From Aquamicrobium sp. (GTDB lineage: Bacteria > Pseudomonadota > Alphaproteobacteria > Rhizobiales > Rhizobiaceae), in assembly GCA_019739225.1 (NCBI GenBank), contig JAHHDT010000005.1, forward strand, positions 744,001 to 808,000: a stretch of 64,000 nt of DNA, read 5' to 3'. The notes beneath the pieces were generated by a model, which worked only from the letters and a program-made list of their open reading frames with translations, made no database searches and had not been told where the DNA came from. The position numbers and the translations under genes were made by a program. Of the stretch, positions 29,640 through 47,688 are shown one piece after another. Numbering within the stretch: the first letter of the stretch is position 1; each line of letters begins with the position of its first letter.

Positions 29640-29643
29640 GCGT

Positions 29644-30444
29644 TCAGGAGACGAAGCTCAACGGCTGTCCGGTGCCGGGATGCGGCAGGATGCCCATCGG
29701 CAGGCCGTAGAGCTTGCCGAGCGTCTCGGGCTCCACGATGACTTGCGGCGCGCCACGGGCAACGACCTCTCCATCCTTGATGGCGATGAGCTCGTCGCAA
29801 TAACGCGCGGCCATGTTGATGTCGTGCAGCACGACCAGCGCGCTCAGCTCGTGTTCGCGCGTCAGCATATGCACCAGCGCCAGCATCTCAGCCTGGTGCG
29901 CAATGTCGAGTGCCGACGTCGGCTCGTCGAGGATCAGGCAGGACGTGTCTTGCGCAAGCATCATCGCCAGCCAGGCGCGCTGGCGTTCGCCTCCCGAAAG
30001 GCTGTCGACCAGCCGGTCCGCCAGTCCAGACAGGTCCGTGCGCTCGAGCGCGGACTCCACCTTCGCGGCATCCTGCGGGCCGAAGCGCCCGAGCGCTCCA
30101 TGCCAGGGAAAACGGCCGAGCGCCACCAGTTCGCGCACCGTCATGCCTTCGGCGGGCGGCGTGAACTGGGGAAGATAGGCGATCTCGCGGGCGAGTTCGC
30201 GATCGCGAAAATCGTCCAGCGGCCTGCCGGCAAGACGGATCTCCCCCGAACTGGGTTTCTGCTGCCGGGCTATGAGCCGCACCAGTGAGCTCTTGCCGGA
30301 TCCGTTCGGTCCGATGACTCCGGTCATCACGCCTCGCCGCAGAGCGAGCGACACGGGTTTCAGGATTAGCACCGCACCCGCGCTGAAGGTCACATCCTTC
30401 AATTCCAGCAATGCTTCCCGGGTGCGGGCACTGTCTTTGTCCAT
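29644..30444 (-). CDS. fhuC: Siderophore ABC transporter ATPase (FhuC-like)
   Basis: This 266-residue ATPase has Walker A GPNGSGKSS, Q-loop AYLPQFTPP, signature SLSGGERQRAW, Walker [13 protein letters not shown] and switch His in VLHDINMA. The sequence follows the FhuC/FepC group closely. It starts 2 bp before the end of the receptor gene's intergenic space, directly after the TonB-dependent receptor on the same strand. It drives uptake through the FhuB-like permease. Confidence 0.94.
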   Translation of the reverse strand: MDKDSARTREALLELKDVTFSAGAVLILKPVSLALRRGVMTGVIGPNGSGKSSLVRLIARQQKPSSGEIRLAGRPLDDFRDRELAREIAYLPQFTPPAEGMTVRELVALGRFPWHGALGRFGPQDAAKVESALERTDLSGLADRLVDSLSGGERQRAWLAMMLAQDTSCLILDEPTSALDIAHQAEMLALVHMLTREHELSALVVLHDINMAARYCDELIAIKDGEVVARGAPQVIVEPETLGKLYGLPMGILPHPGTGQPLSFVS

Positions 30445-30446
30445 GA

Positions 30447-32624
30447 CTACCAGCGTGTTGACGCTTTCAACTTGAACGAGCGACCCTCACCATAGGAGCA
30501 GGTGGAGACGCCCTGGCAACTTGCCACATAGGTCTTGTCGAAGACATTGGTGACGTTGAGGTCGAGGCCCCAGTTGTCGCGTTGATAGCCGAGCTTCAGA
30601 TCGACGAGCGTGACGGCTGGGACCTTGAGCGTGTTCTCATTGTCCGCCCATGACGACCCGATATGCCGAATGCCCGCGCCGACCGTGATGCCGTCATACC
30701 AGGAACCGTCCCGAAACGTGTAGTCGGCAGATGCAGAGGCGAGCACTTCCGGCACGATGAACGGCGTGTTGCCGATCAGATCCGGATTGGCGTCCCGGGT
30801 TATGTCGATATCGTATGCGGTGATGCCAGCCGTGATCTTGAAATGCTCCGTGACGTTGATCTTGGCTTCGGCCTCGAAGCCGCGCGAGCGTACTTCACCG
30901 GTCTGCATCTGGGTGAAAGGCGTGACGTTGGTGGGCACGTTCTGCCGCGTCAGGTCAAACACGGCGAAGGTGAACAGCCCGTCGACGAAGCTGGGCGCAT
31001 ATTTGATGCCCGCCTCGTATTGGACGCCTTCCTCGGGCCTGAACAGATCGCCGTTCGCATCGGTGCCGATGATGGGATTGAAGAACGTGGCAACACTGGC
31101 GTAGGGGGTCAGGCCGTTGGCGAATTCGTAGGCGAGGCCGGCGCGCCCGGAAAACTCGCCATCGCTGCGCTTCTGCGTCACGTTCTGATCCGGGCTGTAA
31201 AAGGTCGGCCGGTCATGAGCCGTCAGCCAGCCGCGATCGTAGCGCCCGTTGAGCGTTGCAATCCAGCCATTGCCGAAGCGCATCTGGTCCTGGACATAGA
31301 AGCCGAGCTGGCTCTGCGTGAGATCCTGATTGATATAGCTGACCGGGTCCGGCAAGGGCGCTCCCGGGATCGGCAGGAAGGCGTCGATGTCCGGCGTGGT
31401 GCCGAAGATCGCCGATGACTGAACCTGGTCGATATTGAAATATTTGTAGTCTATGCCTGCCAGCAGCCGGTGTTCGACCGGGCCGGTGTCGATCTTGCCC
31501 TCGATCTGGTTGTCGATCAGGAAGGTGGTGGACTTCGTCTGGTGGGCAAAGTTGATGCGGGCGAGTTCCGTGTCACTTGCCCAGCCGTTGGCGTAGACGA
31601 ACTGCTCATCGATATCGGACATGCCGAACCGGGCCAGCGAGCGTATCGTCCAGTCGTTGTCGAATGTGTGCTCGAACTCGTAGCCAAGCGCCCCCTGCTC
31701 GCGGAGGTACTTGTCGACGGACTGCTCGCTGAAATTCGCGTCGCGCCGAATACGGCCGTAGTTCACCCCATTGACGACGCGATCGACTACCGTCCCCTCA
31801 TAAGGCAGGAAGCTGTCGCCATTATGCGTCTCGTCGATGTGCATGTAGTTGGCGAAAAGCGTGAGGCTGGTCTGCTCGTCGGGCTTGAAGGTGACGCTGG
31901 GGGCGATGAAGCCACGCCATCCCTTCTGATAGTCGCTGTAGCCTTCGCCGCCCTGAAGCCGGCCGTTCATCCGCCAACTGACGGTATCGCTGGCAAGGTC
32001 GGATATGTCGAAGCCGAGATAGGCGGTGCCGGCATCGTTGATGCCGCTTTCGACATATCGGTTGCGACTGAAATCGGGGCGCTTGCTGACATAGTTGACG
32101 ATGCCGCCTGGGTTGCTGCCTCCGTACAGAACGGAAGCCGGGCCCTTCAGCACGTCGATCCGCTCCAGCCCGAACGTGTCGACATAGAAGCCGCCGAACG
32201 CATATGCAAAGAGCTGCAGCCCATCCAGATAGGCGCCCGTCTGCGTCGCCTGAAAACCGCGCAGGAAAAGCCAGTTGGTGTCGGCATCGGTCCCGAAGGG
32301 CTGGGTGAAGACGCCCGGCGTATAGCGCAGCGCTTCGCCGACGTTCTGGGCACCCGCGTCATCCATCTCCTCGCGGCCGACGACAGATACGGATTGCGGG
32401 ATCTCGTTTATCGCCGTCGCCGATTTCGCGCCGGTTCGGCTTGATCGCGCGACAACGCCGCTGACCGGACCCACTCCGGTGGAATCGCCGTCCCCGTCGC
32501 TTTCGACCACGATTTCCTCGAGCTGTGTCGGCTGGCGTTGCTGAGCGTGAACGCCCGAGACGGTAAGCAAAGCCACTGCCGCGCTGCAGCCGAGGAGGAA
32601 AAGCGTACGGGATCGAGTGGTCAT
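30447..32624 (-). CDS. TonB-dependent siderophore receptor
   Basis: This outer-membrane receptor of 725 residues has a signal peptide (to about 28, ending VHAQ), a TonB-box-like LEEIVV, a plug domain (ALRYTPGVFTQPFGTD, GLERIDVLKGPASVLYGGSNPGG) and a 22-strand barrel ending in the aromatic FKLKASTRW. It is of the FhuA/FoxA/FpvA siderophore class. ATG at 32624 follows GGAG by five bases; a GTG one codon earlier is too close to it. It leads the fhu-type operon and follows an AraC regulator gene. Confidence 0.94.
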   Translation of the reverse strand: MTTRSRTLFLLGCSAAVALLTVSGVHAQQRQPTQLEEIVVESDGDGDSTGVGPVSGVVARSSRTGAKSATAINEIPQSVSVVGREEMDDAGAQNVGEALRYTPGVFTQPFGTDADTNWLFLRGFQATQTGAYLDGLQLFAYAFGGFYVDTFGLERIDVLKGPASVLYGGSNPGGIVNYVSKRPDFSRNRYVESGINDAGTAYLGFDISDLASDTVSWRMNGRLQGGEGYSDYQKGWRGFIAPSVTFKPDEQTSLTLFANYMHIDETHNGDSFLPYEGTVVDRVVNGVNYGRIRRDANFSEQSVDKYLREQGALGYEFEHTFDNDWTIRSLARFGMSDIDEQFVYANGWASDTELARINFAHQTKSTTFLIDNQIEGKIDTGPVEHRLLAGIDYKYFNIDQVQSSAIFGTTPDIDAFLPIPGAPLPDPVSYINQDLTQSQLGFYVQDQMRFGNGWIATLNGRYDRGWLTAHDRPTFYSPDQNVTQKRSDGEFSGRAGLAYEFANGLTPYASVATFFNPIIGTDANGDLFRPEEGVQYEAGIKYAPSFVDGLFTFAVFDLTRQNVPTNVTPFTQMQTGEVRSRGFEAEAKINVTEHFKITAGITAYDIDITRDANPDLIGNTPFIVPEVLASASADYTFRDGSWYDGITVGAGIRHIGSSWADNENTLKVPAVTLVDLKLGYQRDNWGLDLNVTNVFDKTYVASCQGVSTCSYGEGRSFKLKASTRW

Positions 32625-32777
32625 CACAACTCCAGTCAGTCTGCCTGGGCGCGAAGCGCCCTCCTTATAATACCTGACTGCGTATCTCTACTTATCTCAT
32701 GAGGATTGGATATTCTTGACCCGATTGTCCGATTTTGAGCGGGCGACCCCTGCCGCCGCATCATTGATGCAAAAATG
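32625..32777 (-). promoter_or_regulatory. Leader and promoter region of the siderophore receptor operon
   Basis: This 153-bp gap lies between the AraC-type gene and the receptor. On the minus strand it has a -10-like TATTAT (from 32666-32671), with no good -35, as expected for an activator-dependent promoter. It also has a six-bp stem-loop (32646-32651 with 32655-32660) just ahead of the ribosome site. I looked for TGA-N9-TCA and found only one-off mismatches. Confidence 0.4.
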
Positions 32778-33668
32778 TCACGTCTGCTGTTCCCGTTTCC
32801 AGGCCGCAGGGCTCGTGCCTACAATGGAGCGAAAGACGCGGTTGAAGTGCGCTTGGTCTGCAAAGCCGCATTGCGCGGCGATACTGCCGGCCGAGGCCTC
32901 GGATTCGCACAGCAACTTCTGTGCCTGCCGAACACGCGCCTGCATCACGTAACGATGCGGCGCCACACCGGCCGCGGCCTTGAACGCATGACTGAAATAA
33001 GTCTCGGACAGCCCCACCAATTCCGCAAGTTCGCTGAGCCGCAACGGGTCGCAGCAATTCGCGTGAATATACTCTACGGCCTGACTAAGCTGCGCACGCG
33101 ACAAGGCTGGACGACGCCGACGCGGCTCCTGTTTCACCTCGAACAGAAGCGCCAGCAACGCATTGCCCAGGCCTTCGAGATAGATGCGATGATCGGCGGC
33201 TTCCGTTTCCAGTGTTTCGGCGATCATATTGGCCAGCACGGAGATCCTTGGATCATCGAGGACCAGACGGGGCGTCTCCAGCCGATCGCGTGAAAGCGCT
33301 TTCCCGAACCGGCGCTGAATGGCGGCTTCGCTCAGGTGAAGATCCATGTGACGGATACGCGTAATGCCGGTGGCGCGGCTGCGTGTCGGATAGTTTGCGG
33401 GGATATAGCTCAGCGATTGGCCCGCTGGCGCACGAAAATCATGCTCTGCCCGCTTGCCGCTGAGTTTGAATGTCCCATCGCCGTCGATCGACAACGGCAT
33501 GAACAGTCGGGGATAAGGCGCCATGTAGCGCCCCCGCGCCCCTTCCGTGCATGTGACGTCCCACAGGTCGGCCACGATGCCGTCCCAGGCACGCCACTTG
33601 AGTTCGCCAATTACGGAAAACCCCTCGATATGACTTTCCATATGCGGGCTGAAGGTGCCGATGGTCAT
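32778..33668 (-). CDS. AraC-family regulator of siderophore uptake
   Basis: This 296-residue regulator has an N-terminal sensing domain of about 185 residues and a C-terminal double helix-turn-helix (LRLSELAELVGLSETYFSHAFKAAAGVAPHRY; AGSIAAQCGFADQAHFNRVFRSIVGTSPAAW). Genes of this kind (FhuR, RhrA, YbtA types) often sit beside siderophore receptors and activate them when the siderophore is present. It is encoded immediately upstream of the receptor on the same strand. Confidence 0.9.
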   Translation of the reverse strand: MTIGTFSPHMESHIEGFSVIGELKWRAWDGIVADLWDVTCTEGARGRYMAPYPRLFMPLSIDGDGTFKLSGKRAEHDFRAPAGQSLSYIPANYPTRSRATGITRIRHMDLHLSEAAIQRRFGKALSRDRLETPRLVLDDPRISVLANMIAETLETEAADHRIYLEGLGNALLALLFEVKQEPRRRRPALSRAQLSQAVEYIHANCCDPLRLSELAELVGLSETYFSHAFKAAAGVAPHRYVMQARVRQAQKLLCESEASAGSIAAQCGFADQAHFNRVFRSIVGTSPAAWKREQQT

Positions 33669-33957
33669 GTGGAATTGCCCCCCGCCAGCGATCGGCCGGC
33701 GTCACACGCGCCCGTCGTCACCCATACCCGTTCAAGTTCAAGCAGATAATAAATAGATGATCTTTAAACTCCAGTTTATCTGGCTGATGCAACAGGTTCA
33801 GACATCGAACCGGCATTGCCAGGCGACGCTGCAATTGCAGTGAAAGCTTAATTGGGTACCCAAACGCGGCAGCTTGATGCTGCCCGTCAGCAGGCTTTAG
33901 GTCTCCCGCAGGACCGGGACGGCGTTTTCGACCACAGCCGCCGCGGCGATCGGATGG
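33669..33957. promoter_or_regulatory. Gap with palindromes upstream of the AraC-type gene
   Basis: This 289-bp gap has an AT-rich stretch with the inverted repeat AAACT-CC-AGTTT near 33765, a perfect 12-bp palindrome TTGGGTACCCAA at 33852-33863, and a six-bp stem-loop at 33868-33884 (GGCAGC/GCTGCC). The first is about 95 bp upstream of the AraC-type gene and may be its operator. The stem-loop lies past the stop of the 91-aa gene and may end the peptide cluster transcript, but it lacks a U-run. No gene is evident. Confidence 0.4.
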
Positions 33958-34233
33958 TCAGACGATGCGGACTCTGATCGGGCGGGCAGGTCCGAACCGG
34001 CGGCCTGTGCGCGCGCTTACGAGCGTCTGACTGTTCCGGGTCTCGTCGGCCGCGACGATGGAGCGGTCGCGGTCCTGTTCGTCGGCGGGACGCTCCAGCG
34101 CGAATTTCTGTAACGACAGTCGCACCGGCGCGGACAAAAGTGGTGGCTTGGAGGTTGTTTTCTGCGGCGCAGACTCCACGGCGGCGCTCTTTGTTCCTTC
34201 GTCCGGCTTTGTCGGATTTTTTGACTTTGCCAC
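33958..34233 (-). CDS. Small basic protein at the end of the RiPP cluster
   Basis: This 91-residue protein starts with GTG at 34233, with AAAGGA about nine bases upstream. It is Lys/Arg-rich and low in hydrophobic residues, with SAPVRLSLQKFALERPADEQ in the middle and a very basic tail (RTGRRFGPARPIRVRIV). It has no signal peptide, membrane segment or Cys. I do not recognise it. It is the last gene of the minus-strand cluster of two precursor peptides, a protease and an amide-forming enzyme, so it could be a third substrate, an immunity factor or a scaffold. An overlapping 118-codon frame is less likely. Confidence 0.5.
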   Translation of the reverse strand: MAKSKNPTKPDEGTKSAAVESAPQKTTSKPPLLSAPVRLSLQKFALERPADEQDRDRSIVAADETRNSQTLVSARTGRRFGPARPIRVRIV

Positions 34234-34267
34234 GACTATTCATCCTTTGTCAGAGTTCTAGTCAAAC

Positions 34268-34303
34268 GGCGGGCCGGCATCGCTTGCGCGTAGACGGCCC
34301 GCC
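34268..34303 (-). promoter_or_regulatory. Stem-loop after precursor peptide 1
   Basis: Arms GGCGGGCC (34268-34275) and GGCCCGCC (34296-34303) form a perfect eight-bp stem. On the minus strand it is followed by GTTTGACT, a poor U-run. It lies just after the 48-aa precursor stop, so it may be a weak terminator or an mRNA-stabilising hairpin that raises precursor levels over the 91-aa gene. Confidence 0.5.
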
Positions 34304-34309
34304 AACTTA

Positions 34310-34456
34310 TCAGATGGCGCCGGCAATCGCATAGATCTGGTCAAGCCAGGGATTGGCGCCTGGCCAGTAGGACGCTCTGACACCGAGGCCTTCGGGGGTT
34401 GTCGCCACACGGTCGACCTTTCGAACCACCGCAGGCATCTGCTTGGGCAGCTTCAC
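34310..34456 (-). CDS. RiPP precursor peptide 1 (48 aa)
   Basis: This 48-codon gene starts with GTG at 34456 and has AAGGAAG six bases upstream. Residues 1-25 align without gaps to the other precursor: MKLP, Q6, PAV at 8-10, RK at 12-13, D15, A18, PEG at 21-23 and G25 are shared (16 of 25 identical). The following segment is unrelated and aromatic-rich (GVRASYWPGANPW, then LDQIYAIAGAI). A conserved leader with a variable C-terminal core is the hallmark of RiPP precursors. The first acidic residue of the proposed core is D39, too far for a standard 7-9 residue lasso ring starting at G25. Confidence 0.8.
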   Translation of the reverse strand: MKLPKQMPAVVRKVDRVATTPEGLGVRASYWPGANPWLDQIYAIAGAI

Positions 34457-34482
34457 TGTACACTTCCTTTTGCTTCACTCAC

Positions 34483-34512
34483 CGTGGGGCGCACCACATG
34501 ATGCGTCCCACG
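34483..34512 (-). promoter_or_regulatory. Stem-loop between the two precursor genes
   Basis: The segments 34483-34493 and 34502-34512 pair over eleven bases with one mismatch around an eight-base loop. It lies in the 79-bp gap between precursor 2 and precursor 1, upstream of the ribosome site of precursor 1. It could set the ratio of the two peptides. No U-run follows. Confidence 0.45.
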
Positions 34513-34535
34513 TAGTTGAGTGTCTTCCTGCGCGA

Positions 34536-34697
34536 TCAAAACATCGACGCGAAGGTCGGGATGAGCGGTGCCACCTTGCCGATGCCACCCACGATATCTT
34601 CAAAGATCCCGGCAGCCTGCATGCCGGCACCCTCGGGCACAACGGCGCACTTGTCGGTCTTGCGCTCCACCGCGGGAAGCTGTCTGGGAAGTTTCAT
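34536..34697 (-). CDS. RiPP precursor peptide 2 (53 aa)
   Basis: This 53-codon gene starts with ATG at 34697 after a good ribosome site (AAGGAGC). The leader MKLPRQLPAVERKTDK matches that of precursor 1 up to G25, after the shared PEG motif. The proposed core from G25 is hydrophobic and glycine-rich (GIFEDIVGGIGKVAPLIP, ending TFASMF), reminiscent of membrane-active peptides. If the core begins at G25, E33 is its ninth residue, the spacing of a lasso-type macrolactam; precursor 1 does not share this. The single Cys (C17) lies in the leader. It is encoded 155 bp after the protease gene. Confidence 0.82.
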   Translation of the reverse strand: MKLPRQLPAVERKTDKCAVVPEGAGMQAAGIFEDIVGGIGKVAPLIPTFASMF

Positions 34698-34813
34698 GAT
34701 ATTAGCTCCTTTGGACCTGGGTTGAGCCGCCTGCCAAGACTGGCGGCCATCGCTGTCACCGTCGCGTAAAAAACTCTTCGACCGCATCGACGGTTCATAC
34801 GGCCGAACCCTGG

Positions 34814-34832
34814 CCCGCGCCGTTGGCGCGGG
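34814..34832 (-). promoter_or_regulatory. Stem-loop between protease and precursor genes
   Basis: CCCGCGCC (34814-34821) and GGCGCGGG (34825-34832) form a perfect eight-bp stem with a three-base loop, 21 bp past the protease stop. No U-run follows on the minus strand. It may protect a processed precursor mRNA or slow transcription between the enzyme and substrate genes. Confidence 0.5.
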
Positions 34833-34852
34833 ACAAAAGCCACTGCCGCGGG

Positions 34853-37201
34853 CTAGTAGACGTACCAGCTGCGCAGGCTGCCCACATTGACGGGCATGAC
34901 GTCGCTTACGTCGACGGTGCGGCGATAGAGTTTTCGTGCCTTCTCGAAACGCTGCGTCGGGTCGAAGAACGTCAGCAGCACATCGTAGCAAAGCGACTCC
35001 GGTCGGCTGATTGCGCTCTGCTCGCAGGTGATCTTGTCGAGCTCCATCTTGTCGCGGGCCGCCTCGACGAAGACTTCGCCGGCAGAGAACGCGTTGGTAG
35101 CGAGATAGTTGATCGCCCGCTCGTCCGGTGCCTGTCCCGTGTTTCTGAGCTCGTAGTAGATACGGTCGAGAAAGTTGCGCAGGCGTTCACGCAATTCATC
35201 CTCGCCTTCGCCGTCGAGAACCCGGATTTTTGCCGGATCCTCCTTGAACTGGTCGACGAGCAGATCGACGAGCAGCCTGGGCTCCCAGTTCGACATGCCG
35301 CGCAAGGTCGGTTCGATCGAAGGCACGACCGTGCCGTTGTACAGGCGTTTCGAGCCAAGGATGCGTCCGGCGACGGAAATGCGATCGCTCAACCCCTCAG
35401 CGGTTTCTCTCAGGAAGTCGATCAGGGTGAGGAAGATGATGAGATCGAAATTGCCCATCGGCCGGATTTCATAGATCGGGATCGAATCTGTGTTGAGTGT
35501 CCAGATCAACGCGTTGGAGTCCGCCTGGGTCGCGTTGTATTTGGGATCGATGCGACCGGCGTTGAGATAGGTGGCCATCGCCTTGTAGTTCTCGGGCAGC
35601 GGGATGTTGCCCTCGCTGACCTCCGCCGCTTCCCTCAGCCGGTTGTCCTGGAAGAGCGCCTGGAATTGCTGGACGAAATAGTCGCGCCGCGCCTCCGTTC
35701 CGAAATCGTAACCGATCTCGCCGGTGATGAAGACGAGCTGCGAGTTGCGGAAAGTTACAAAATCGTTCTCGGGAAACCCGGTTGCTTGTACGGGTGGCGG
35801 CGCTGCCTCCATTGGCAACACGCCCCGGCTGCCCGGCTCGCGGTCGGCTGGCTGAAGGCCGCTGCCCGTCGCCCCAGCCGTCGCGAGATGCGGTGCCGTC
35901 TGTGCTTGCGGCGCAGCGGCCTGAACCGCGGCTGGTTGCATTGCCGTCGGGGCGGCATTCGTTATCTGGGCCGTCGGCGGCGGGGCGGCCTGGGCGGTTG
36001 CAGACCTCACCGAATCGGCAACGAGCCCTTCAAGACGCGAAATCAGGCCGCCAATTTCCGTCTGGGTCGATGGAACGACTCCGTCGAACGCACTATTCTC
36101 GATTTGACTGGTCATAGCGTGCAACTCCTCCTCTACGGGTAGTGCTGGTACTAGGGGTGTCGACGAAAGATGCTCGGTTTGCGAAAGGCCTGCGCTTTCC
36201 TGGAGGATGGCTGATGCGGACAGATCAGCCCCAAAGAGGATCGCGTAAGCGCCTGGAATGTTGATGCGCCCACAGAGCATTCGCGTGCTTTGCTCCTGCG
36301 GCTCTCCCGCGCTGCAAGGGAGCGCGCTCGCTATCAGGGCGTCTCGAACCTCGGCGAGCTTCGCGTCGGATCGTTGTGACTTGAGGAGCGACCACAGCAG
36401 GGCGAGAACGCCCGTCACGATCGGCGTGGCGAAACTCGTGCCGCTTCGTGCGCCGAGACCGCCATCGGCCCTCGTGCCCGGAATGTCGACGCCCGGCGCA
36501 AGCAGACCGCTGATCTTCCTGCGAGCATCCCAGTTGCTGAAGCCTAGCGGCAGCCCATCCTTGTCGGCAGCGCCAACTGCCAGCACACCATCGAGGCAAG
36601 CAGGTACATTCGGTAACGGATCGCCATTGTTTCCAACCGCCGCCACGATGACCACATCGCAATCGCGACATTTCCGGATCGCATCCAGCAGGAAGGGGTC
36701 TGCCACGCCCTCCGGGGCCGCCTCCCCACCACTGATATTCAGGATCCTGGCGCCTTCGCCCCGCGCGAGCGAGATCGCACGTGCAAGATCCATCTGGCTG
36801 CAAGGGCGCAACCGGCCCTCTACAGACTCATGGAAGATCGGTACCGATAGGCCGCGACATCCTGGAGCAATTCCCCGCACCGGACTTCCCGGCTGGCCGA
36901 AGATGATGCTGGCGACGTGGCTCCCGTGGCCGGCCACGGCGATGCCGCTGTTGTCGATCCAGGCAGGCCTATGCTCGGTCAGGTTCGATCCTGCAAAGCA
37001 GGGAAGGCCGAGGTCCACGCAACCGTCTATGATGCCTAGACAGACAGAAGAATCCCCTTGAGCCTTTGCCATAAGTTCAGCCAGCCCCGGGAGTATGTCC
37101 GCTGGGTGCAACAAGAAACGCTTCGCGCCAAAAGGCGTGCTCCTAAGTATGACCTGATCGGTGCAGAATAGATGATCCTCACCTTGCACAACTGTGCGCA
37201 A
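34853..37201 (-). CDS. Subtilase with cyanobactin PatA/PatG-type C-terminal domain
   Basis: This 782-residue protein has three parts. Residues about 50-325 are an S8 serine protease with D59 (GIIDGCVD), H92 (GHGSHVASIIFGQ), oxyanion Asn in VGNNG and S256 (SGTSFATP). FGQPGSPVRGIAPGCRGLSVPIF is very like PatA/PatG proteases. Residues 330-485 are an Ala/Gln/Pro linker. Residues 486-782 match the PatG C-terminal region (ITGEIGYDFGTEARRD, LIWTLNTDSIPIYEIRP, LRGMSNWEP). It has no signal peptide, so it should cut the precursors in the cytoplasm. The start is uncertain: TTG 37201 or GTG 37189, neither with a ribosome site. It is the first gene after an AT-rich promoter gap. Confidence 0.87.
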   Translation of the reverse strand: MRTVVQGEDHLFCTDQVILRSTPFGAKRFLLHPADILPGLAELMAKAQGDSSVCLGIIDGCVDLGLPCFAGSNLTEHRPAWIDNSGIAVAGHGSHVASIIFGQPGSPVRGIAPGCRGLSVPIFHESVEGRLRPCSQMDLARAISLARGEGARILNISGGEAAPEGVADPFLLDAIRKCRDCDVVIVAAVGNNGDPLPNVPACLDGVLAVGAADKDGLPLGFSNWDARRKISGLLAPGVDIPGTRADGGLGARSGTSFATPIVTGVLALLWSLLKSQRSDAKLAEVRDALIASALPCSAGEPQEQSTRMLCGRINIPGAYAILFGADLSASAILQESAGLSQTEHLSSTPLVPALPVEEELHAMTSQIENSAFDGVVPSTQTEIGGLISRLEGLVADSVRSATAQAAPPPTAQITNAAPTAMQPAAVQAAAPQAQTAPHLATAGATGSGLQPADREPGSRGVLPMEAAPPPVQATGFPENDFVTFRNSQLVFITGEIGYDFGTEARRDYFVQQFQALFQDNRLREAAEVSEGNIPLPENYKAMATYLNAGRIDPKYNATQADSNALIWTLNTDSIPIYEIRPMGNFDLIIFLTLIDFLRETAEGLSDRISVAGRILGSKRLYNGTVVPSIEPTLRGMSNWEPRLLVDLLVDQFKEDPAKIRVLDGEGEDELRERLRNFLDRIYYELRNTGQAPDERAINYLATNAFSAGEVFVEAARDKMELDKITCEQSAISRPESLCYDVLLTFFDPTQRFEKARKLYRRTVDVSDVMPVNVGSLRSWYVY

Positions 37202-37243
37202 AGAGATGAAATGATCCGAATCTGCTTGTGAGTGCCAAGGTAA

Positions 37244-37271
37244 ATAATATTCGAAAAAGCTAATTTATCAA
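37244..37271 (-). promoter_or_regulatory. Sigma70-like promoter in the AT-rich gap before the protease
   Basis: On the minus strand TTGATA (from 37266-37271), a 16-base spacer and TATTAT (from 37244-37249) lie about 43 bp before the protease start. The surrounding 236-bp gap (37202-37437) is strikingly AT-rich compared with the rest of the window and has no gene. This suggests that the protease and precursors can be transcribed apart from the synthetase-like gene. Confidence 0.6.
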
Positions 37272-37437
37272 ATACCGCATTGGGCGTATAATTTTCAGAT
37301 TTTAAATATAAATTTAATATATTTGCCTGCGGTAAACTGATATTAAAAAGGCAATATGATATTATTAAAATGCGGCTGAACCGCCCAGTAAATATGGGGG
37401 GCTTGCGACGAATTTTAGCAAGAGCCTGTTCGAGTTT

Positions 37438-39651
37438 TCAGACAACGAGGACCCCGAACTCCAGGGACTCTTCCAGGTCTTTCCAGATTCGATGACGTTC
37501 AAAGCGCAAGTCTTGAAGCAGTGTCTCGATGGATGTGTTCCCATCGATCCTCGCGAGAAATGAACGCCACTCTGGGCGTGCGTCGCTCAGTTCGTAGCGA
37601 AGCTCGGATCCGATCATGATGAAAAGCGCGCCGGGTTGACCGAAATCGGGGTCGCCGGTGACACATTCGACAAGCCGCACTCCCGGAGCGAATTTCGGTA
37701 TGGCCGTGACCGTCAACGTCTTGTCTCGTGCGACCATATCCACGGATGCCGCCTTTTCGAATGACGGCCAGTCCGGTCCGATCTCGATCCTCTCCAGAAC
37801 CGGCGTTGGCTGCGCCGCCGGCGGTTCGCTCACCATGTGCGACAACAGGGCCATGTTGACGAGCTCGAAGACGCGGTCGACCAACGCAAACTCGGGATCC
37901 TGAGAGATCGAGGTCAGGACGCGCAGCATCGCACCGGCATCGAGCGCTGGATTGTCCTGCCCCGCCGAGCACGCCTCCTCGACCAGCGCCATGTTGCTGT
38001 GGCACAGCAAGGTGTAGAGCATGCGGCGCGTGTACCGCTCGTCCTCACCGGTGAAGAACGGCACCTTCGGCCGCATCCGCAGGTCGTCAGGAACTATCCC
38101 GTGGACGGCGTCGCGCAGTATCGCCTTGTTCCAGAACATTGCCTCGTAAGAGTCCTGAGGTACGCGATAGCAAAGCTCGACCAGACGATGATCGAGGAAA
38201 GGGACCCTTGCCTCGATCCCATGCGCGGCGGCCGTGCGATCCTCATGCCAGAGGTGATAGACCTGCAGAAGGTAGCGATAGGCGTCCCGATAGGCGTGCC
38301 AGGGATGCCTGTATTCCGCGGTGTCGGCTCGCTGGCTCAGGAATGCTTGGGCGAACACACCATCAGGTGCGTCGAGTGCAAGATATTCGTTGCGACCGAT
38401 ACCGAACTCAACCTCGGACGCGCGGGTCAACATCGACATCTGTCTGAGAAAATCCTGCCAGTTTGGCGCGTCCGGGCCGCGGCAAAAAGTTGCCGCGTAG
38501 CCGCCATTGAACTCGTCGCTACCGGATCCGAGGAGCATGACCTTGAGATCGGGAAAATGCGCCTTCGCGTAACCGTGCAGGAAGAACTTGTAGAGGTGCT
38601 CGGCATTGGCCAGGGGCGTCTCCAGGGACCACAGGATCGACTTCCAGAGCTCCGGGGTGACTGCCATGTCGCGCCAGTCGAACTTGACCAGATGCGATTC
38701 AATGCCGAGCCGCTCCGCGGCGGCATGGGCGTGCGCTGCGTCGCCGTTGGTCATGGTGCTTTGCGACATCACGGAGAAGGACCGGATTGTCGCGCCACGC
38801 GCAGCCAGCGATGTGACACTCAGCGAGTCGATACCACCGCTGAGAAACACGCCCATGGGAACATCCGACATGAGTTGCATGTCGACGGAGTCCGAAAGAA
38901 TCTCGCGGTATGCTGCCACGCACTCGGCGTTGGAGCTCAACGGTGGGCCGGCAGCGGCGGGATCCCACCACCGCCGGATCTCGTAGGACCCGCTGTCGAG
39001 GTCGAGTTCAAGATAGCTGCCGCCGGGAAGCTGGCGAATGCCCAGGAAGTGCGTATCCGGCAGCCGATCTTCCCGCGGCAGGAACATGCGCTGCCGGAAT
39101 GCCACGGCCGTGTTCCAGTCGAAGCTGCGGGGCGCCTGCGGGTATGCAAGCAAAGCCTTGATTTCCGAAGCAAACCCGAAATGCCCGTCATTGACGAAAT
39201 AGAACAGCGGTTTCACGCCAAGACGGTCACGTGCAAGATAGAGGCGGCGGCTCTGACGATCGAGGATTGCTGTGGCGAAGATGCCGTTGACTTGCTCGAG
39301 ATAGCCGATGCCGAATTCCTCATAGAGATGAGTGATGACCTCGCAGTCCGACGCGGAGCCGAGCTGGTGGTTGCGTTCCAGGCGGGGTCTCCAGGCGGCG
39401 TGATTGAAAATTTCTCCATTGGTTGCCGAAAACAGCGTACGGCTCTCGTTCCAGATCGGCTGCTGCCCGCCTTCCGGGTCGATGATGGCAAGCCGGCAGA
39501 AAGCAAGCCCGAAAGCGTCTTCGACGTAGATCTTCGCATCGTCCGGGCCGCGATGACGGATACGGTCCAGCGACCGCGCAAGCAGCAGCCTCAACGCTTG
39601 CGGTGCGAAATTGCCGCCGTCCAATCTAACGAGCCCAGTCAAACCGCACAT
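37438..39651 (-). CDS. Asparagine-synthetase-like RiPP enzyme with C-terminal recognition-element-like domain
   Basis: This 737-residue protein has a class II glutaminase domain (catalytic C2, RHRGPDD, NGEIFN) and an ATP-pyrophosphatase domain with SGGIDS (271-276), LLGSGSDEFNGGY (374-385) and Lys in MRPKVPFF. Lasso-peptide cyclases and AsnB share this plan; it adenylates a carboxylate and forms an amide. Beyond residue 612 is about 125 residues that AsnB lacks. Its last 50 (WRSFLARIDGNTSIETLLQD onward) read like a PqqD/RRE-type winged helix that could bind a leader peptide. Next to two precursors and a protease, a peptide-modifying role is more likely than asparagine synthesis. The intact glutaminase Cys leaves ammonia transfer possible. 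Confidence 0.83.
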   Translation of the reverse strand: MCGLTGLVRLDGGNFAPQALRLLLARSLDRIRHRGPDDAKIYVEDAFGLAFCRLAIIDPEGGQQPIWNESRTLFSATNGEIFNHAAWRPRLERNHQLGSASDCEVITHLYEEFGIGYLEQVNGIFATAILDRQSRRLYLARDRLGVKPLFYFVNDGHFGFASEIKALLAYPQAPRSFDWNTAVAFRQRMFLPREDRLPDTHFLGIRQLPGGSYLELDLDSGSYEIRRWWDPAAAGPPLSSNAECVAAYREILSDSVDMQLMSDVPMGVFLSGGIDSLSVTSLAARGATIRSFSVMSQSTMTNGDAAHAHAAAERLGIESHLVKFDWRDMAVTPELWKSILWSLETPLANAEHLYKFFLHGYAKAHFPDLKVMLLGSGSDEFNGGYAATFCRGPDAPNWQDFLRQMSMLTRASEVEFGIGRNEYLALDAPDGVFAQAFLSQRADTAEYRHPWHAYRDAYRYLLQVYHLWHEDRTAAAHGIEARVPFLDHRLVELCYRVPQDSYEAMFWNKAILRDAVHGIVPDDLRMRPKVPFFTGEDERYTRRMLYTLLCHSNMALVEEACSAGQDNPALDAGAMLRVLTSISQDPEFALVDRVFELVNMALLSHMVSEPPAAQPTPVLERIEIGPDWPSFEKAASVDMVARDKTLTVTAIPKFAPGVRLVECVTGDPDFGQPGALFIMIGSELRYELSDARPEWRSFLARIDGNTSIETLLQDLRFERHRIWKDLEESLEFGVLVV

Positions 39652-40092
39652 GTTGCAGGCCTAGTCTCAGAGGATTTGCGATGAAGCAGCCGCTCCTCTT
39701 TTCACGAGTGAATAAGGATGCCGCGCGTCAGCCGCATGCAATTGAGGACGCTAAACAGTCCTCGCTTCGGACACGTTTCGTCAGCCGAAGGTGGTCTTTT
39801 TGAAAGGCAACTGTTTACCACGTCTGCCAGCCGATCTCACGGGAGATCGAGGTCGGCCTCCAGTTTGAGTTTATGCAAAGTTAAACTGGATCGGTCGTGC
39901 GCCGAATTGGCGTCTCTGGCGGCCGGAACTGCCGAGGCTCTCCCAGTCCGGCATCTCAGACACTGGGCGGACCAGAATGCCGACGTAGTATCTGACCTCT
40001 ATTCAGCTGTGTTTACCGTCGGCAGATGCTGGTGCCATGGGTTTAACTGGCGGTCGCCTGCGTATGTCGAAGGAAAAACAGCAGACCGGACT
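39652..40092. other. 441-bp gap upstream of the synthetase-like gene
   Basis: The gap separates the RiPP cluster from the peptide ABC operon, both on the minus strand. It contains the inverted repeat CCAGTTT (39860-39866) / AAACTGG (39883-39889), which shares the nine bases CTCCAGTTT with the AraC promoter region near 33769. A weak minus-strand promoter for the synthetase-like gene must lie here. A plus-strand frame of 150 codons (39718-40170) has no family features and overlaps the ABC gene, so I do not call it. Confidence 0.4.
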
Positions 40093-41787
40093 CTATTGCG
40101 CCGGCAGCCGGATCATTCCATCGCTTGCGTTTCCACCAGTCCCGGCATCGCTGTGAAAACGCCACCCTAGTTTCACCCCGCCGTGGCCCGTTCGGACAAG
40201 GGTGGGAATGGCCTGCAGCAATTCCCTCGTGTATTCGTGCTGGGGATTGTCGAAGATCGCATCGCGGCTTCCCTGTTCGACCACGACGCCCCTCTTCATT
40301 ACGATCACACGATCGGCGATCTGCTCGACAACGGCCAGATCATGGCTGATGAACAGGCATGAGAAGCCGTGTTTGCGTTGCAGTTCGGCAAAAAGCTTAA
40401 GGACCTGTGCGCGGACCGTGACATCCAGCGCGGATACAGGTTCGTCGGCGATGACGAATTGCGGCCGCGTCACGACGGCACGGGCTATGGCGATACGCTG
40501 GCGTTGTCCCCCGGAGAGCTGGTGCGGAAACCTGGTTGCAAAGGATGCAGCCAAGCCGACTTCATCGAGAATTTCCGTCACTCGCGAACGCTTTTCGTTC
40601 GCCGACAGTTCTTTGCGGTGGCGCAACGCTTCCCCCACCAGGCCAGCGACTGTCATGCGGGGATCGAGCGACGAATAAGGATCCTGGAAAACCATCTGGC
40701 AGTTTACCCGATAGTTCCCATAATTCGTCGACGAGGGCGATATGGGATCGCCGTTGAAGAGAACCTGGCCTTCCGTCGGGGGAATCAACCCGGCGATCGC
40801 CCGGCCGAGCGTCGTCTTGCCCGAACCCGATCCTCCGACCACCGCAACGACTTCCCCCGGCATCACATTCAGGCTGATGCCGTTCAGTGCGCGCTCGGGT
40901 TTCCCCTCGCGAAACAGGCCCTGGCGCGCGGCATAATCGACGACGAGCCCATCGACCTCGATCCGCGCCACCGGCGTATTCTCGATTGCGCGAGCGGGCA
41001 TGCGCTGCGGCAGGGCCGACAGGAGCTTGCCTGTATAGGCATGTCGCGGCGCCTCCAGCAGGCTGCGCGTTTCGCCCTGCTCGACGATCTCGCCCTGCGA
41101 CATGACAACGACGCGGTCGGAGTAGGTCGCCACCATCGCCAGATCGTGGCTGATCATCAGCACGGCCGTGTTGTTCTCGCGCGTCAGTTCGACCATCAGT
41201 TCCAGAACGTCGCGCTGCACCACCGCGTCCAACGCGGTCGTCGGCTCATCGGCGATCAGCAATGCCGGCTTGAGCAGCATCATCGCAGCGAGCATGATGC
41301 GCTGGCGCATACCGCCGGAGAAATGATGCGGCATGGCCGAAAGCGCCGTACTCGGATCGTTCAGGCCGACACGTGCGAGCATGTCGACGATCAACCGGTG
41401 GCGCTCGCGCTTCGTATGGCCACTGTGAAGGCGCAACCCCTCTTCCATTTGCCGGCCGATGGTCATCGACGGGTTGAGGGAGGTCATGGGCTCCTGAAAC
41501 ACCATGCCAACGCGGGCGCCGCGCAGCGCCCGCAGGTCGCGCTTGCTCATGGTGCATATGTCGCGGTCTTCGAATCGTATCGAGCCACTGGTGCGTCGGA
41601 TGTCGGGCGGGTTGAGAGCGACGATGGAACGCGCCGCCATCGACTTTCCGGAACCGGATTCGCCCACGATGCCGACAATCTCGCCGGCATTCACATTGAA
41701 GCTGACGTGCTTGAGGATCTGGATTCCTGTTCGCCCGACCTCGAGTGAAAGGTCGCGCACATCAAGGATGGGCCTTGGCTCGTGCAT
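40093..41787 (-). CDS. Peptide-type ABC transporter, fused ATPase (second system)
   Basis: This 564-residue double ATPase has Walker A GESGSGKS (42-49) with signature FSGGMRQR in the first half and GGSGSGKT with LSGGQRQR in the second, each with a DEP Walker B segment. ATG at 41787 is chosen because it lies two bases after the permease stop and precedes the conserved ILDVRDLSLEV strand; the frame is open further upstream. It is a distant paralogue of the ATPase encoded at 2.9-4.5 kb. It ends the operon for peptide importer 2. Confidence 0.93.
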   Translation of the reverse strand: MHEPRPILDVRDLSLEVGRTGIQILKHVSFNVNAGEIVGIVGESGSGKSMAARSIVALNPPDIRRTSGSIRFEDRDICTMSKRDLRALRGARVGMVFQEPMTSLNPSMTIGRQMEEGLRLHSGHTKRERHRLIVDMLARVGLNDPSTALSAMPHHFSGGMRQRIMLAAMMLLKPALLIADEPTTALDAVVQRDVLELMVELTRENNTAVLMISHDLAMVATYSDRVVVMSQGEIVEQGETRSLLEAPRHAYTGKLLSALPQRMPARAIENTPVARIEVDGLVVDYAARQGLFREGKPERALNGISLNVMPGEVVAVVGGSGSGKTTLGRAIAGLIPPTEGQVLFNGDPISPSSTNYGNYRVNCQMVFQDPYSSLDPRMTVAGLVGEALRHRKELSANEKRSRVTEILDEVGLAASFATRFPHQLSGGQRQRIAIARAVVTRPQFVIADEPVSALDVTVRAQVLKLFAELQRKHGFSCLFISHDLAVVEQIADRVIVMKRGVVVEQGSRDAIFDNPQHEYTRELLQAIPTLVRTGHGGVKLGWRFHSDAGTGGNASDGMIRLPAQ

Positions 41788-41789
41788 CG

Positions 41790-42602
41790 TCAATGTCTCA
41801 TCCTTGGGTCGAGTTTGTCCCGTAACGCGTCGCCCAGGAGATTGATTCCGAGCAGCGTGAGCGAGATGCAAAGGCCTGGGAAGATGGCCAGCCAAACCGC
41901 CTGCGAGATGAATGGGCGCCCACTCGCGAGCATGTTCCCCCAGGTCGGCGCGGGTGGCGGTACACCGAGCCCGAGAAAGCTCAGCGCGCTTTCGGCAAGC
42001 AACACCCATCCAAACATCGATGTGGCCAGAACCGTCAGTGGCGCGATGCAGTTTGGCAGAATGTGACGCAGCATTGTGTAGGCATTCGAATTACCCATGA
42101 CACGGGACGCTTCGATGAACTCCCGCTCGCGTAGCGACATGACGGCGCCACGCACGATGCGGACAACGGTCGGCGTATATGCCAGCCCCAGAGCCAGCAC
42201 GATGCCGTACTTGTTTGCGCCGAAGATCGCGAGCAGGCCGAGGGCCAGCAGAATGCCGGGGAAAGCCAGCAGCGCGTCGTTGAACATCATCACAACGCGA
42301 TCGACCCAGCCTCGAAAATAACCCGTGACGATCCCGATCACGGTGCCGGCACTTACCGCCAGACATACGGTGAGGAAACTTATCCAGAAGCTCGTTGCCG
42401 CGCCGGTCAGCAATCGGCTGAGCACGTCCCGCCCGAACTCGTCCGTGCCAAGCCAGTGCGCGGCCCCTGGACCAGCCAGCTTGAGGGTGAAATTGAGCCC
42501 CAACGGATCGTAAGGGGTCCAGACCGCCCCCAGCAACGCGGCACATAGAAGTGCCCCGGTAAGCAGCACACCCAGAACCGCACTTGGAGATAACCGGGTC
42601 AT
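41790..42602 (-). CDS. Peptide-type ABC transporter permease (DppC-like, second system)
   Basis: This 270-residue inner-membrane permease has LGTDEFGRDVLSRLLTGAATS after the first span and the coupling motif VMGNSNAYTMLRHILPN. The C-terminus LGDALRDKLDPRMRH is typical of DppC. It overlaps the DppB-like gene by four bases (ATGA) and lies two bases before the ATPase gene, so translation is coupled. The substrate is unknown; an M20 peptidase gene upstream suggests small peptides or acyl amino acids. Confidence 0.93.
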   Translation of the reverse strand: MTRLSPSAVLGVLLTGALLCAALLGAVWTPYDPLGLNFTLKLAGPGAAHWLGTDEFGRDVLSRLLTGAATSFWISFLTVCLAVSAGTVIGIVTGYFRGWVDRVVMMFNDALLAFPGILLALGLLAIFGANKYGIVLALGLAYTPTVVRIVRGAVMSLREREFIEASRVMGNSNAYTMLRHILPNCIAPLTVLATSMFGWVLLAESALSFLGLGVPPPAPTWGNMLASGRPFISQAVWLAIFPGLCISLTLLGINLLGDALRDKLDPRMRH

Positions 42603-43543
42603 TGGGCGTTCACTTTCGGGTCAAACACCGGATACAGCAGATCCACCACCAGATTGACGAGGACGTAGATGGTCGCGATCATCAGCAGGCAGCCCTGGAT
42701 CACCGGGTAGTCGCGGGCGAAGATTGCTTCCACAAGCAGCCGCCCGAGGCCTGGTATCGCAAACACGGTTTCAATGACCGCGATGCCGCCGAGCAGGTTT
42801 CCAAGAACAATTCCGATGAGTGTCCATGTCGGACCAAAAGCGTTTTTGAACGCATGTCGCCACATGACTGCGGCTTCGGACAGGCCCTTGGCGCGGGCAT
42901 GGGTGATGTAGTCCAGTTGCATAACTTCAAGCGTGGACGCGCGGGCCATCCGCATGATCACGCCGATCTCGTGGAGCAGAAGCGTTGCAACTGGCAGGAT
43001 GATGTAGAGAAGGCCCTGCATGAAATCCTGGCTGATCGAGACATATCCGACCAGCGGCAACCAGCCGAGCTTGAGCACGAACAGCAGGAGTAGCAACAAG
43101 CCCATCCAGAATGCGGGAATGGAAAGCAGGACCGTTGCGATACTCACCAGGGCCACGTCGGTGAGGCTGTTCTGGCGCCAGGCGGCAATCATGCCGGCAG
43201 GCACGGCTATGACGCTGGCAAGAAGTACCGCTATCAGCACGATCTCCGCGCTGACACGAAGCCGCCCGAGGATGAGAGGCAGGACCTCCTGCTGGCTGGT
43301 GATCGACCGGCCAAAATCTCCGCTGAGTATGTTGCCCAGCCAGATCGTGAACTGAACTGGAATGCTCTGGTCAAGTCCGAGCCGTGACCGCAGGTCGGCA
43401 AGGCTGGCCGCATCGGCAAGATCGCCCAACATCAGCGAGGCTGGGTCGCCCGGGATTAGCCGAATAAGAAAGAAGACGGATACCGACACGATGAACAGTG
43501 TCGGTATCGCCGCAATAATCCGGCTTATTGCGAATTTTAGCAT
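42599..43543 (-). CDS. Peptide-type ABC transporter permease (DppB-like, second system)
   Basis: This 314-residue permease starts with a hydrophobic FAISRIIAAIPTLFIVSVSVFFLIRLIPGDPA, the standard DppB opening, and has LGLDQSIPVQFTIWLGN and the coupling motif DYITHARAKGLSEAAVMWRH. It follows the binding-protein gene by 25 bp. Together with the DppC-like subunit it forms the channel of peptide importer 2. Confidence 0.93.
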   Translation of the reverse strand: MLKFAISRIIAAIPTLFIVSVSVFFLIRLIPGDPASLMLGDLADAASLADLRSRLGLDQSIPVQFTIWLGNILSGDFGRSITSQQEVLPLILGRLRVSAEIVLIAVLLASVIAVPAGMIAAWRQNSLTDVALVSIATVLLSIPAFWMGLLLLLLFVLKLGWLPLVGYVSISQDFMQGLLYIILPVATLLLHEIGVIMRMARASTLEVMQLDYITHARAKGLSEAAVMWRHAFKNAFGPTWTLIGIVLGNLLGGIAVIETVFAIPGLGRLLVEAIFARDYPVIQGCLLMIATIYVLVNLVVDLLYPVFDPKVNAQ

Positions 43544-43568
43544 TGTCTAACCGTGATCAGATGAAAAT

Positions 43569-45107
43569 CTACTGCTTCGCCACTTCCCAGAGGCGCAGCT
43601 TCGACTGCCATGACACAGCGCCTTCCAGTCGCTTGTTCGATACGATGTCGTTGACGCCATTGCTGTAGATGATCATGGGCACATCGTGCAGCAGAAGCGT
43701 GTGCAATTCGTCGAAGATCGCCTGGCGCCTTGCGGGATCGGACACGGCCTTGCCTTCGTCAATCAGCTTGAGCGCTTCGGGGTTGTTCCAGACCTTGCCG
43801 GAGGTAGTATCCTTGGGTCCAGAAAACTGCTCGAAGCTGAGCGCTGGGTCGAAGCGGGACGAGTATGAAAATGCCATCATCTGGTAATTGCCGGAGAAGT
43901 AGCGGCTAAGCTGCGTGCCCCACTCCATCACCTCGATCGTGGCATTGATTCCAGCAGCTTGCAGCATGGCCTGTGCCACCACAGCCGTCTCGAAGCTCGG
44001 CGTGGTTGGCCGCTTGTTGGCAATTATGGTGATGGGTTCGCCCTTGTAGCCTGCCTTGGCAAGCAGCTCCCGCGCCTTGTCCAGATCATGCGCGAACGCC
44101 TGCTTCTGCACGTCGCTGTAATACATCGATTGTGGAAAGATGGCCGAATTGTTCGGTCGACCGGAGCCGTTGGTCACCTGGGTTACGAGCGTCGGCAAGT
44201 CCAGGGCGGCGGCAATAGCCTGACGCATTTCGACCTTGGAGAGCAGCGGATCGGCGACCTGCAGAGACAAGGTGTGCTTTGACGCGTCAACCGAGTCCGC
44301 GACATTGAAGTCCGGATTTGCTGCGAACTCCGGTACATCGGTGCTGGCAACGGCGGCGAGGTCCACGGTGCCGGACAGCAGGCCGGCCTTGATCGTTTCC
44401 GGATCGCTGATGACGTAGAAGCGGACCTTTTCCGCCAGCGGCTTCTTTGCACCGACATATCCGTCCGGTGCGCTGCCAGCGGGCGTCACATAGTCCGAGA
44501 ATGCTTCCAGCTCAAAATATTCGCCGCGCTTCCAGGTTCCGAATTTGTACGGGCCGGTTCCGATCGGCTGGTTCCAAGTACCGTCTTCGTTGACAGACGC
44601 ATAGTGCAGGATGCCTGCCATACCGCAGTCTGTGCGCGCAAGCGCATCGAGGAAAACGGCGCTTGGCTGGTTGATTGTCATCACGATGGTTTGCGCGTCG
44701 GGTGCGGTTACGCTCTCGACCTTCAGGCCGTTTCGGCCGTCAAACTCCGCGAGGCACCGCCATTCGGTTGCCGGGTCCATGTAACGGGTCCAGTTCCACA
44801 GGACGTTTTCGGCGCTGAAGGTTTCACCGTTGTGAAAGGTAATCCCTGTCCTCAGCTTGAATGTGTATGTCAGCCCGTCTGCGGACATGTCCACGCTCTG
44901 CGCGAGCAGTGGACCCACAGAGCCATCTTCGCGATAGCCGACCAGGCCCTCGACCATATGCAGTACGACGCCATCGGTCGTGTCATCGCGGTTGACGCCC
45001 GGGTTGGTGCTGCGAACATCCTGGGCGATGGAAGCCGTGATCGTTTGCGCCATCGCCTGCGGCGATAGCAACCCAAGCATCATGGCTGAAAGCACAATAC
45101 GTTTCAT
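43569..45107 (-). CDS. Periplasmic peptide-type binding protein (SBP family 5, second system)
   Basis: This 512-residue receptor has a signal peptide (MKRIVLSAMMLGLLSPQAMAQ) and the SBP family 5 marks: YTFKLRTGITFHNGETFSAENVLWNW, IGTGPYKFGTWKRGEYFEL and VEMRQAIAAALDLPTL. GGGGAAC precedes the ATG. It is the receptor of importer 2 and the largest product of that operon. It is unlike the first-system receptor except at the family motifs, so the two importers should have different ligands. Confidence 0.93.
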   Translation of the reverse strand: MKRIVLSAMMLGLLSPQAMAQTITASIAQDVRSTNPGVNRDDTTDGVVLHMVEGLVGYREDGSVGPLLAQSVDMSADGLTYTFKLRTGITFHNGETFSAENVLWNWTRYMDPATEWRCLAEFDGRNGLKVESVTAPDAQTIVMTINQPSAVFLDALARTDCGMAGILHYASVNEDGTWNQPIGTGPYKFGTWKRGEYFELEAFSDYVTPAGSAPDGYVGAKKPLAEKVRFYVISDPETIKAGLLSGTVDLAAVASTDVPEFAANPDFNVADSVDASKHTLSLQVADPLLSKVEMRQAIAAALDLPTLVTQVTNGSGRPNNSAIFPQSMYYSDVQKQAFAHDLDKARELLAKAGYKGEPITIIANKRPTTPSFETAVVAQAMLQAAGINATIEVMEWGTQLSRYFSGNYQMMAFSYSSRFDPALSFEQFSGPKDTTSGKVWNNPEALKLIDEGKAVSDPARRQAIFDELHTLLLHDVPMIIYSNGVNDIVSNKRLEGAVSWQSKLRLWEVAKQ

Positions 45108-45128
45108 TCCAAGTTCCCCGCTTTATGT

Positions 45129-45152
45129 ATCCCGGGCGTTCCTGTCCGGGAT
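45129..45152 (-). promoter_or_regulatory. Stem-loop upstream of the second peptide-binding protein
   Basis: ATCCCGG (45129-45135) and CCGGGAT (45146-45152) form a perfect seven-bp stem around ten bases. It lies 22 bp upstream of the binding-protein start, in the 155-bp gap after the M20 peptidase gene. With no U-run it may be a leader structure or a processing site rather than a terminator. Confidence 0.4.
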
Positions 45153-45262
45153 TTCTATTAATTTCCGAACCAAAGAAGGCATTGTCCGGCATCTTCTATT
45201 CGCTCACCGCACTGCATGGCGATGTGTATGCACCCGATTGCACATTCGGATTTCTGGTGGGA

Positions 45263-47675: not shown

Positions 47676-47688
47676 TTCGAAAGCGCGC

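Follow-up and report, generated by a model that had tools for sequence, protein, structure and literature searches.

The closest described systems to the locus reported here are the cyanobactin pathways. As stated in the available part of PMC4663559, an active cyanobactin cluster always encodes two proteases, A and G, together with E, B and C, and the accessible text of PMC8776678 gives Roseomonas oryzae a cyanobactin peptidase and a likely cyanobactin-like peptide. Asparagine synthetase-like (AS-like) enzymes also act on ribosomal peptides: in the portion of PMC13060819 that is available, ScdTA amidates the cyanobactin scytodecamide at its C-terminus, TsrC likewise amidates a peptide C-terminus, and PesC serves in the nitrilobacillin pathway of Bacillus-related genera. 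Lasso peptide clusters share with the present locus an AsnB homologue and small precursors, but have a transglutaminase-like partner where a subtilase is found here. Our subject is a cluster on the minus strand (positions 33958-39651) of a 64,000-nucleotide stretch of Aquamicrobium sp. DNA, hereafter the window (contig JAHHDT010000005.1, positions 744,001 to 808,000), from a genome of 5.35 Mb in 7 contigs. An original prediction, made from the letters alone, had proposed a candidate new cluster for a ribosomally synthesised and post-translationally modified peptide (RiPP) from four coinciding features on one strand, a 91-residue basic frame among them. All five frames were confirmed, with coordinates and strand, as follows.

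37438-39651, minus strand: P0005, an AsnB-like amidotransferase of 737 residues, with the glutaminase residues MCG, NGE and SDCE present and an extra C-terminal region
37441-37830, minus strand: C-terminal extension of P0005 (residues 608-737), no family assigned, weak likeness to PqqD or winged-helix proteins
37202-37437, minus strand: AT-rich gap between P0005 and P0004, 236 bp, 35% GC, with promoter-like and terminator-like consensus matches
34853-37201, minus strand: P0004, a subtilase of the PatA/PatG family with Peptidase_S8, PatG_D and PatG_C domains
34536-34697, minus strand: P0003, a precursor of 53 residues, with a 29-residue leader (MKLPRQLPAVER...GMQAA) and the core GIFEDIVGGIGKVAPLIPTFASMF
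34539-34610, minus strand: predicted core of P0003, placed by the PatA-type site and by a leader as long as that of P0002
34310-34456, minus strand: P0002, a precursor of 48 residues with a GTG start, a 29-residue leader (KLPKQMPAVVR...GVRAS) and the core YWPGANPWLDQIYAIAGAI
34313-34369, minus strand: predicted core of P0002; GVRAS agrees with G(L/V)E(A/P)S at 4 of 5 positions
33958-34233, minus strand: P0001, a basic open reading frame (ORF) of 91 residues, with KPPLLSAPVRL, a weaker form of the leader motif, at residues 29-39 and the tail RTGRRFGPARPIRVRIV

Judged from its sequence, this is a real, minimal cyanobactin-like cluster, in which the protease step is assigned on good homology and amidation is a reasoned guess. 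The full reading, a minimal cyanobactin-like RiPP cluster whose products would be linear peptides amidated at the C-terminus by the AsnB-like enzyme, we regard as evenly balanced between right and wrong. The pairing with an AsnB-like gene is seen once, here, and the amidation chemistry has a precedent in what is available of the scytodecamide report. That pathway is a cyanobactin one (by the title of its paper) with AS-like C-terminal amidation, as proposed here; it is cyanobacterial, unlike the present host, and is likened by its published chemistry, not by gene cluster or ScdTA sequence (PMC13060819, available part). The same source contradicts the view that cyanobactin clusters use no AsnB-like enzyme. 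A literature search found no PatA/PatG plus AsnB cluster outside cyanobacteria, a weak absence in that most subscription papers lie beyond its coverage. If the reading holds, two genetically encoded enzymes would suffice in this Gram-negative bacterium to give linear peptides with an amidated C-terminus.

The protease carries the family assignment. P0004 scores 506.6 bits against the PatA/PatG model TIGR03895 (cut-off 421.05) and is alone in passing among six matches in the genome, the other five being weaker subtilase matches; a PatG-type C-terminal region, as predicted, is present behind the subtilase domain. Its S8 domain agrees best with N-terminal cyanobactin proteases (4h6w, 241.6 bits; 3zxx, 236.9; 4h6v, 236.8) and less well with the thiazoline oxidase/subtilisin-like (PatG-type) chains 4h6x (175.7) and 4aks (175.5), whose alignments begin only at residue ~106, at the His motif; its C-terminal region aligns with 4uvq (136.3 bits). 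Residues are counted here from 37258, the read-in position of the searched sequence, and the start codon is uncertain (TTG at 37201, the longest common start; GTG at 37189; or TTG at 37114 or 37111). We read P0004 as a PatA-like leader peptidase that would have no macrocyclase insert, the location of which in PatG-type proteases is our assumption. S8, PatG_D and PatG_C are common to P0004 and the other TIGR03895 proteases, but here the protease is single and its S8 domain PatA-like. Since active cyanobactin clusters always contain A and G, E, B and C, according to the available text of PMC4663559, this one is no cyanobactin cluster in the strict sense, and should work like the leader-removing half of such a pathway.

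Its presumed substrates share a leader. P0002 and P0003 match at 55% over 29 residues (E about 2e-8, the database being a small one of five loci), bearing out two tiny genes with a common leader and different tails. KLPxQxxAVxR, the N-terminal motif of this leader, is a member of a wider family, [KRN]LPx[QL]xxP[VI]xR, which is found at PatG_C proteases and spans six phyla by record titles (Pseudomonadota, Acidobacteriota, Bacillota, Bacteroidota, Actinomycetota in L047, and Cyanobacteria). With this strict pattern 58 distinct 11-mers were collected from short ORFs anywhere in other PatG_C loci, PatB-type proteins included, so the likeness among them is partly by construction. When a matrix made from them was run over the 741 ORFs of the window, P0002 ranked first (19.1 bits), P0003 third (12.2) and P0001 fourth (10.2); equal scores were reached by 1, 6 and 125 of 20000 shuffles, respectively. 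At the same motif the patellamide-leader model TIGR03678 matched two relatives, weakly and under its cut-off (E 0.008 and 0.042). Each of P0001-P0003 has an AAAGGA- or AGGA-type site 5' of its start. As to B and C genes of the cyanobactin kind, none of these three frames has an NCBIfam match at E 0.1, P0002 and P0003 none even at E 1; Rfam gave nothing at gathering score on 30000-43000. The evidence that P0001 is a third precursor is weak, and we treat it as a possible one.

The PatA site consensus is given as G(L/V)E(A/P)S in the available part of PMC10885120, and both leaders end at residue 29, with GVRAS in P0002 and GMQAA in P0003. Both precursors end with the core, and an AYDG-type C-terminal recognition sequence is absent from them.

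The comparison set came from a PatG_C alignment scan of genome contigs, which gave 266 relatives (an earlier contig scan queried with the whole protease gave none); the best 80 of 266 were kept and make 75 loci. Nine further loci (L036-L039, L045-L048, L052) overlap with these in two cases (L105 is L037, L114 is L038), which brings 84 loci to 82 distinct ones, 38 to 36 and 35 to 34. Record titles decided which loci count as cyanobacterial (43) and which as others, and because several loci span just 3-5 kb a neighbouring gene could be missed. PatG_C is scarce near the host, being found in 2 of 385 genomes of the class and 2 of 398 of the phylum, its own genome counted in both; the TIGR03895 cut-off is passed by 5 of 150 relatives, again with its own genome included. 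In viral contigs 36 stretches fitted a pattern, yet a PatG_C relative was confirmed in none; AsnB-type loci there number 78.

Leader-type short frames beside PatG_C proteases, for which a search had been suggested, were found: a motif ORF occurs in 17 of 35 non-cyanobacterial loci (34 distinct) and in 18 there is none. Downstream of the motif, 14 of these 17 loci have the loose pattern [GS][ILVM]x[APL][SNA], although in two of the 14 (L076, L077) the stretch to it is long and it is probably not the site. A single PatD served as the tblastn query for YcaO (E 1e-4). YcaO was found neither in the window, in agreement with the prediction, nor in 38 non-cyanobacterial PatG_C loci (36 distinct), whereas 13 of the 43 cyanobacterial loci of the scan have a relative. 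These minimal non-cyanobacterial loci resemble the present one in protease type, leader-bearing short ORFs and lack of YcaO; they differ in having no AsnB-like gene, and many of their cores are Cys-rich where those of P0002 and P0003 are Cys-free. The leader-motif family and the absence of YcaO from non-cyanobacterial loci point to a minimal cyanobactin-like system with a PatA-like leader protease and no follower. The motif could also be used to mine genomes other than cyanobacterial ones for cyanobactin-like clusters that have no YcaO.

P0005 has the Pfam domains Asn_synthase, GATase_7 and GATase_6, and its extra C-terminal part (residues 608-737) was confirmed. It keeps the glutaminase Cys2, NGE and SDCE, motifs for glutaminase activity and ATP binding that fit an amidating AS-like enzyme. 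With these residues kept, ammonia would be expected to come from glutamine, which favours amidation over lactam formation. In a tree of 35 sequences P0005 groups with four plasmid AsnB-like enzymes (support 100/100). Five lasso-type cyclases (100/99) and 25 other AsnB-type rows (98/89) stand separate from it, the latter being the best lasso-model hits and not proven asparagine synthetases. The tree includes one paralogue from the same genome (L163) and leaves out the other (L162) as well as locus L129; the branches of L044, L128, L131 and L135 are long.

The best plasmid relatives of P0005 are three Streptomyces proteins (34-37% identity over 91-100% of the query), followed by enterobacterial ones (33-34% over 78%). 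All four plasmid loci opened (L041-L044) carry an annotated PqqD-family gene no more than about 5 kb away, and for two of them, L041 and L044, Pfam confirmed it. Close by there is also an AurF-type oxygenase in L041, LanM in L042, and in L044 both a JmjC-type protein and a methyltransferase. Nucleotidyltransferase genes also lie near the members of this Streptomyces and enterobacterial clade, which looks like an uncharacterised peptide-tailoring group. Among 397 genomes of the order (E 1e-110, up to two candidates scored per genome) the AsnB clade was found in the host genome only, and so was the C-terminal region of P0005 among 385 genomes of the class, with a single 130-residue query that reaches close relatives only.

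Taken together as a pathway, the KLPxQxxAVxR motif in the 29-residue leader would serve docking, and P0004 would cut after GVRAS and GMQAA, as the family consensus suggests, to free the two cores. No follower comes after the cores, so PatG-type macrocyclisation is not expected. P0005 would then activate a carboxylate of the peptide as an acyl-adenylate and amidate it with glutamine-derived ammonia; the C-terminus is the likeliest position, by analogy with ScdTA and scytodecamide. The calculated monoisotopic masses of the P0002 and P0003 cores are 2118.057 and 2478.323 unmodified, 2117.073 and 2477.339 as amides (-0.984 Da), and 2100.047 and 2460.313 as lactams. Of the earlier proposal that the product is a macrolactam or an amidated peptide, the amide stands as our best guess, while a lasso-type macrolactam fits badly with Cys2, the ring register, the Thr expected at -2 and the tree.

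We hold a wider version of this reading more tentatively and incline against it as a whole: that there is a YcaO-free, multi-phylum cyanobactin-like family, with a PatA-type protease and an LPx[QL]xxP[VI]xR leader read by PatG_D/PatG_C, which here would have recruited an AsnB-like amidase of a PqqD-linked clade and make linear amidated peptides. The common leader motif suggests a leader-reading role for the PatA/PatG domain of unknown function. The available text of PMC4663559 calls the function of that extra domain open and cites it as not binding linear substrates, which speaks against leader-reading by PatG_D/PatG_C unless the motif was absent there.

Gene order bears on whether the genes form a single unit. 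A DNA search with 28700-45200 in 7 genomes of the same genus listed matches down to about E 4e-7, and the cluster is not among the matches listed. One of them, G004, is 97% identical over 40074-45200, and when the window was set against 60 kb of it, identity was 92-96% over 40074-49650 and leftward there were only short stretches of 68-70%. The break in synteny lies 423 bases upstream of the start of P0005, which leaves the AsnB-like gene, the protease and the precursors on the same side; the end of the match at about 40074 suggests an island or a rearrangement to its left.

Several observations weigh against amidation by P0005 in a cyanobactin-like cluster. An AsnB-like gene near the protease was found in 0 of the 75 scanned PatG_C loci (E 1e-4) and in 0 of the nine others, once the weak match of L036 (E 3e-5) is set aside, which looks by eye like a PurF-type glutaminase; the pairing of AsnB with PatG_C is seen in one genome, this one. 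The co-occurrence in other genomes by which a conserved new class was to be recognised thus did not appear. A RiPP-type cluster of a PatA/PatG-family protease with leader-sharing precursors is well supported by homology. The 236-bp gap holds a terminator-like sequence (37384-37372) and a promoter-like one (37271-37244) on the minus strand, both consensus matches only. There is a single protease and no A/G pair. GMQAA agrees with the PatA consensus at only 2 of 5 positions, against 4 for GVRAS. An unrelated frame (59324-59749) ranks second with the leader matrix, at 14.3 bits, above P0003; P0002 and P0003 both score under the lowest training score (20.9 bits) and have Ala where 58 of 58 training 11-mers have Pro. 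Finally, the P0005 extension shows only weak signs of being a RiPP recognition element, and this is not claimed: hhalign against PqqD proteins gave a probability of 22% (E 1e-3), no Pfam family matched at E 1, and a single-sequence structure model (pLDDT 44, a per-residue confidence score) was not usable.

The first of these points favour an arrangement in which only the protease and the precursors belong to the system, with the AsnB-like gene a neighbour that serves something else. No PatG_C locus among 84 (82 distinct) has an AsnB-like gene nearby, and the gap between P0005 and P0004 may hold its own promoter and terminator. P0005 and P0004 might possibly lie on two transcripts; the consensus scan gave 7 promoter-like sites with 2.0 expected and 10 terminator-like sites with 5.4 expected. 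However, the two genes are adjacent on one strand and on the same side of the synteny break, neither is among the matches listed for the 7 same-genus genomes, and the nearest relatives of P0005 sit near PqqD-family and tailoring-type genes. We find this explanation doubtful, though deserving of serious thought.

Formation of a lasso-like or head-to-tail macrolactam by P0005, once P0004 has removed the leader, appears unlikely. Lasso cyclases are AsnB homologues, GANPWLD in P0002 would allow a G1-D7 ring, and the lasso model NF033535 matches P0005 at 198 bits; its cut-off of 525 bits is uninformative, because none of 142 genomes passes it and even the verified lasso loci score lower (L128, 340; L135, 244). 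Yet P0005 keeps its glutaminase residues, unlike the lasso controls L128 and L135, Ser2 cyclases verified by PqqD and Transglut_core3 neighbours, and unlike L131, L133 and L134 (lasso-type by their cyclases only), which have Ser or Thr at position 2. It also falls outside the lasso-type branch of the tree. To bring Asp or Glu to core positions 7-9, the cut would have to be offset by +1 to +3 in P0002 and, differently, by -2 to -4 in P0003, and none of these offsets, checked by eye, places a Thr at -2, a residue described as invariant in lasso leaders in the available part of PMC10885120. On these grounds a lasso macrolactam is disfavoured.

About equally improbable is a different use of the same chemistry, in which P0005 would make a nitrile, or amidate Asp or Glu side chains and not the C-terminus. 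Acidic residues are present in both cores, and PesC, likewise an AS-like enzyme acting on a ribosomal peptide, converts the C-terminal carboxylate to a nitrile (PMC13060819, available part). PesC, however, needs prior hydroxylation by an MNIO enzyme of the Asp beside the C-terminus (same source), and no MNIO was found among the neighbouring genes scanned. That P0005 is a housekeeping asparagine synthetase beside a protease locus is very improbable: it passes TIGR01536 (347.8 bits, cut-off 267.1), but the genome has two further AsnB-like places (E 0.001 or better), the tree sets P0005 away from the 25 other AsnB-type rows, and it has Ser for the Glu of GEGSDE in E. coli AsnB (1ct9), a residue that carries weight in AsnB.

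Eight neighbouring genes were given to Pfam, and within that scope there is no B2 protease and no exporter, as had been predicted, nor a PqqD-like B1, a separate PqqD gene or an MNIO. Adjoining the cluster, 26779-33668 holds a frame with two FecCD permease stretches, a periplasmic binding protein, an ABC ATPase, a TonB-dependent receptor and an AraC regulator; this is a siderophore-type uptake set, and its ABC genes are of importer type.

Some features of the leader family in other genomes deserve mention. By our own reading, PatE-type leaders of cyanobacterial loci likewise begin with the motif, as does PatB (TIGR04220, 124 bits, for the one protein given). PatB-type proteins of loci such as L086 and L097 carry an N-terminal KLPKQSPPVKR like that of precursor leaders, hinting that the two may have a common partner. 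A Cys-rich core family behind the same leader, G-C-[NDS]-[IV]-[FL]-K ... C-[IV]-D-C, recurs in Proteobacteria (L037, 9468-9683; L039, 8461-8676; L108, 11111-11326; L076, 1922-2167). On a plasmid of Streptomyces sp. NBC_00299 (L047, 12764-13750) four precursors lie in tandem; they have LQMPQQVPPVDR leaders and GVEAN sites, and their cores, such as FLPLLGALGSLLF, we take to resemble short amphipathic antimicrobial peptides.

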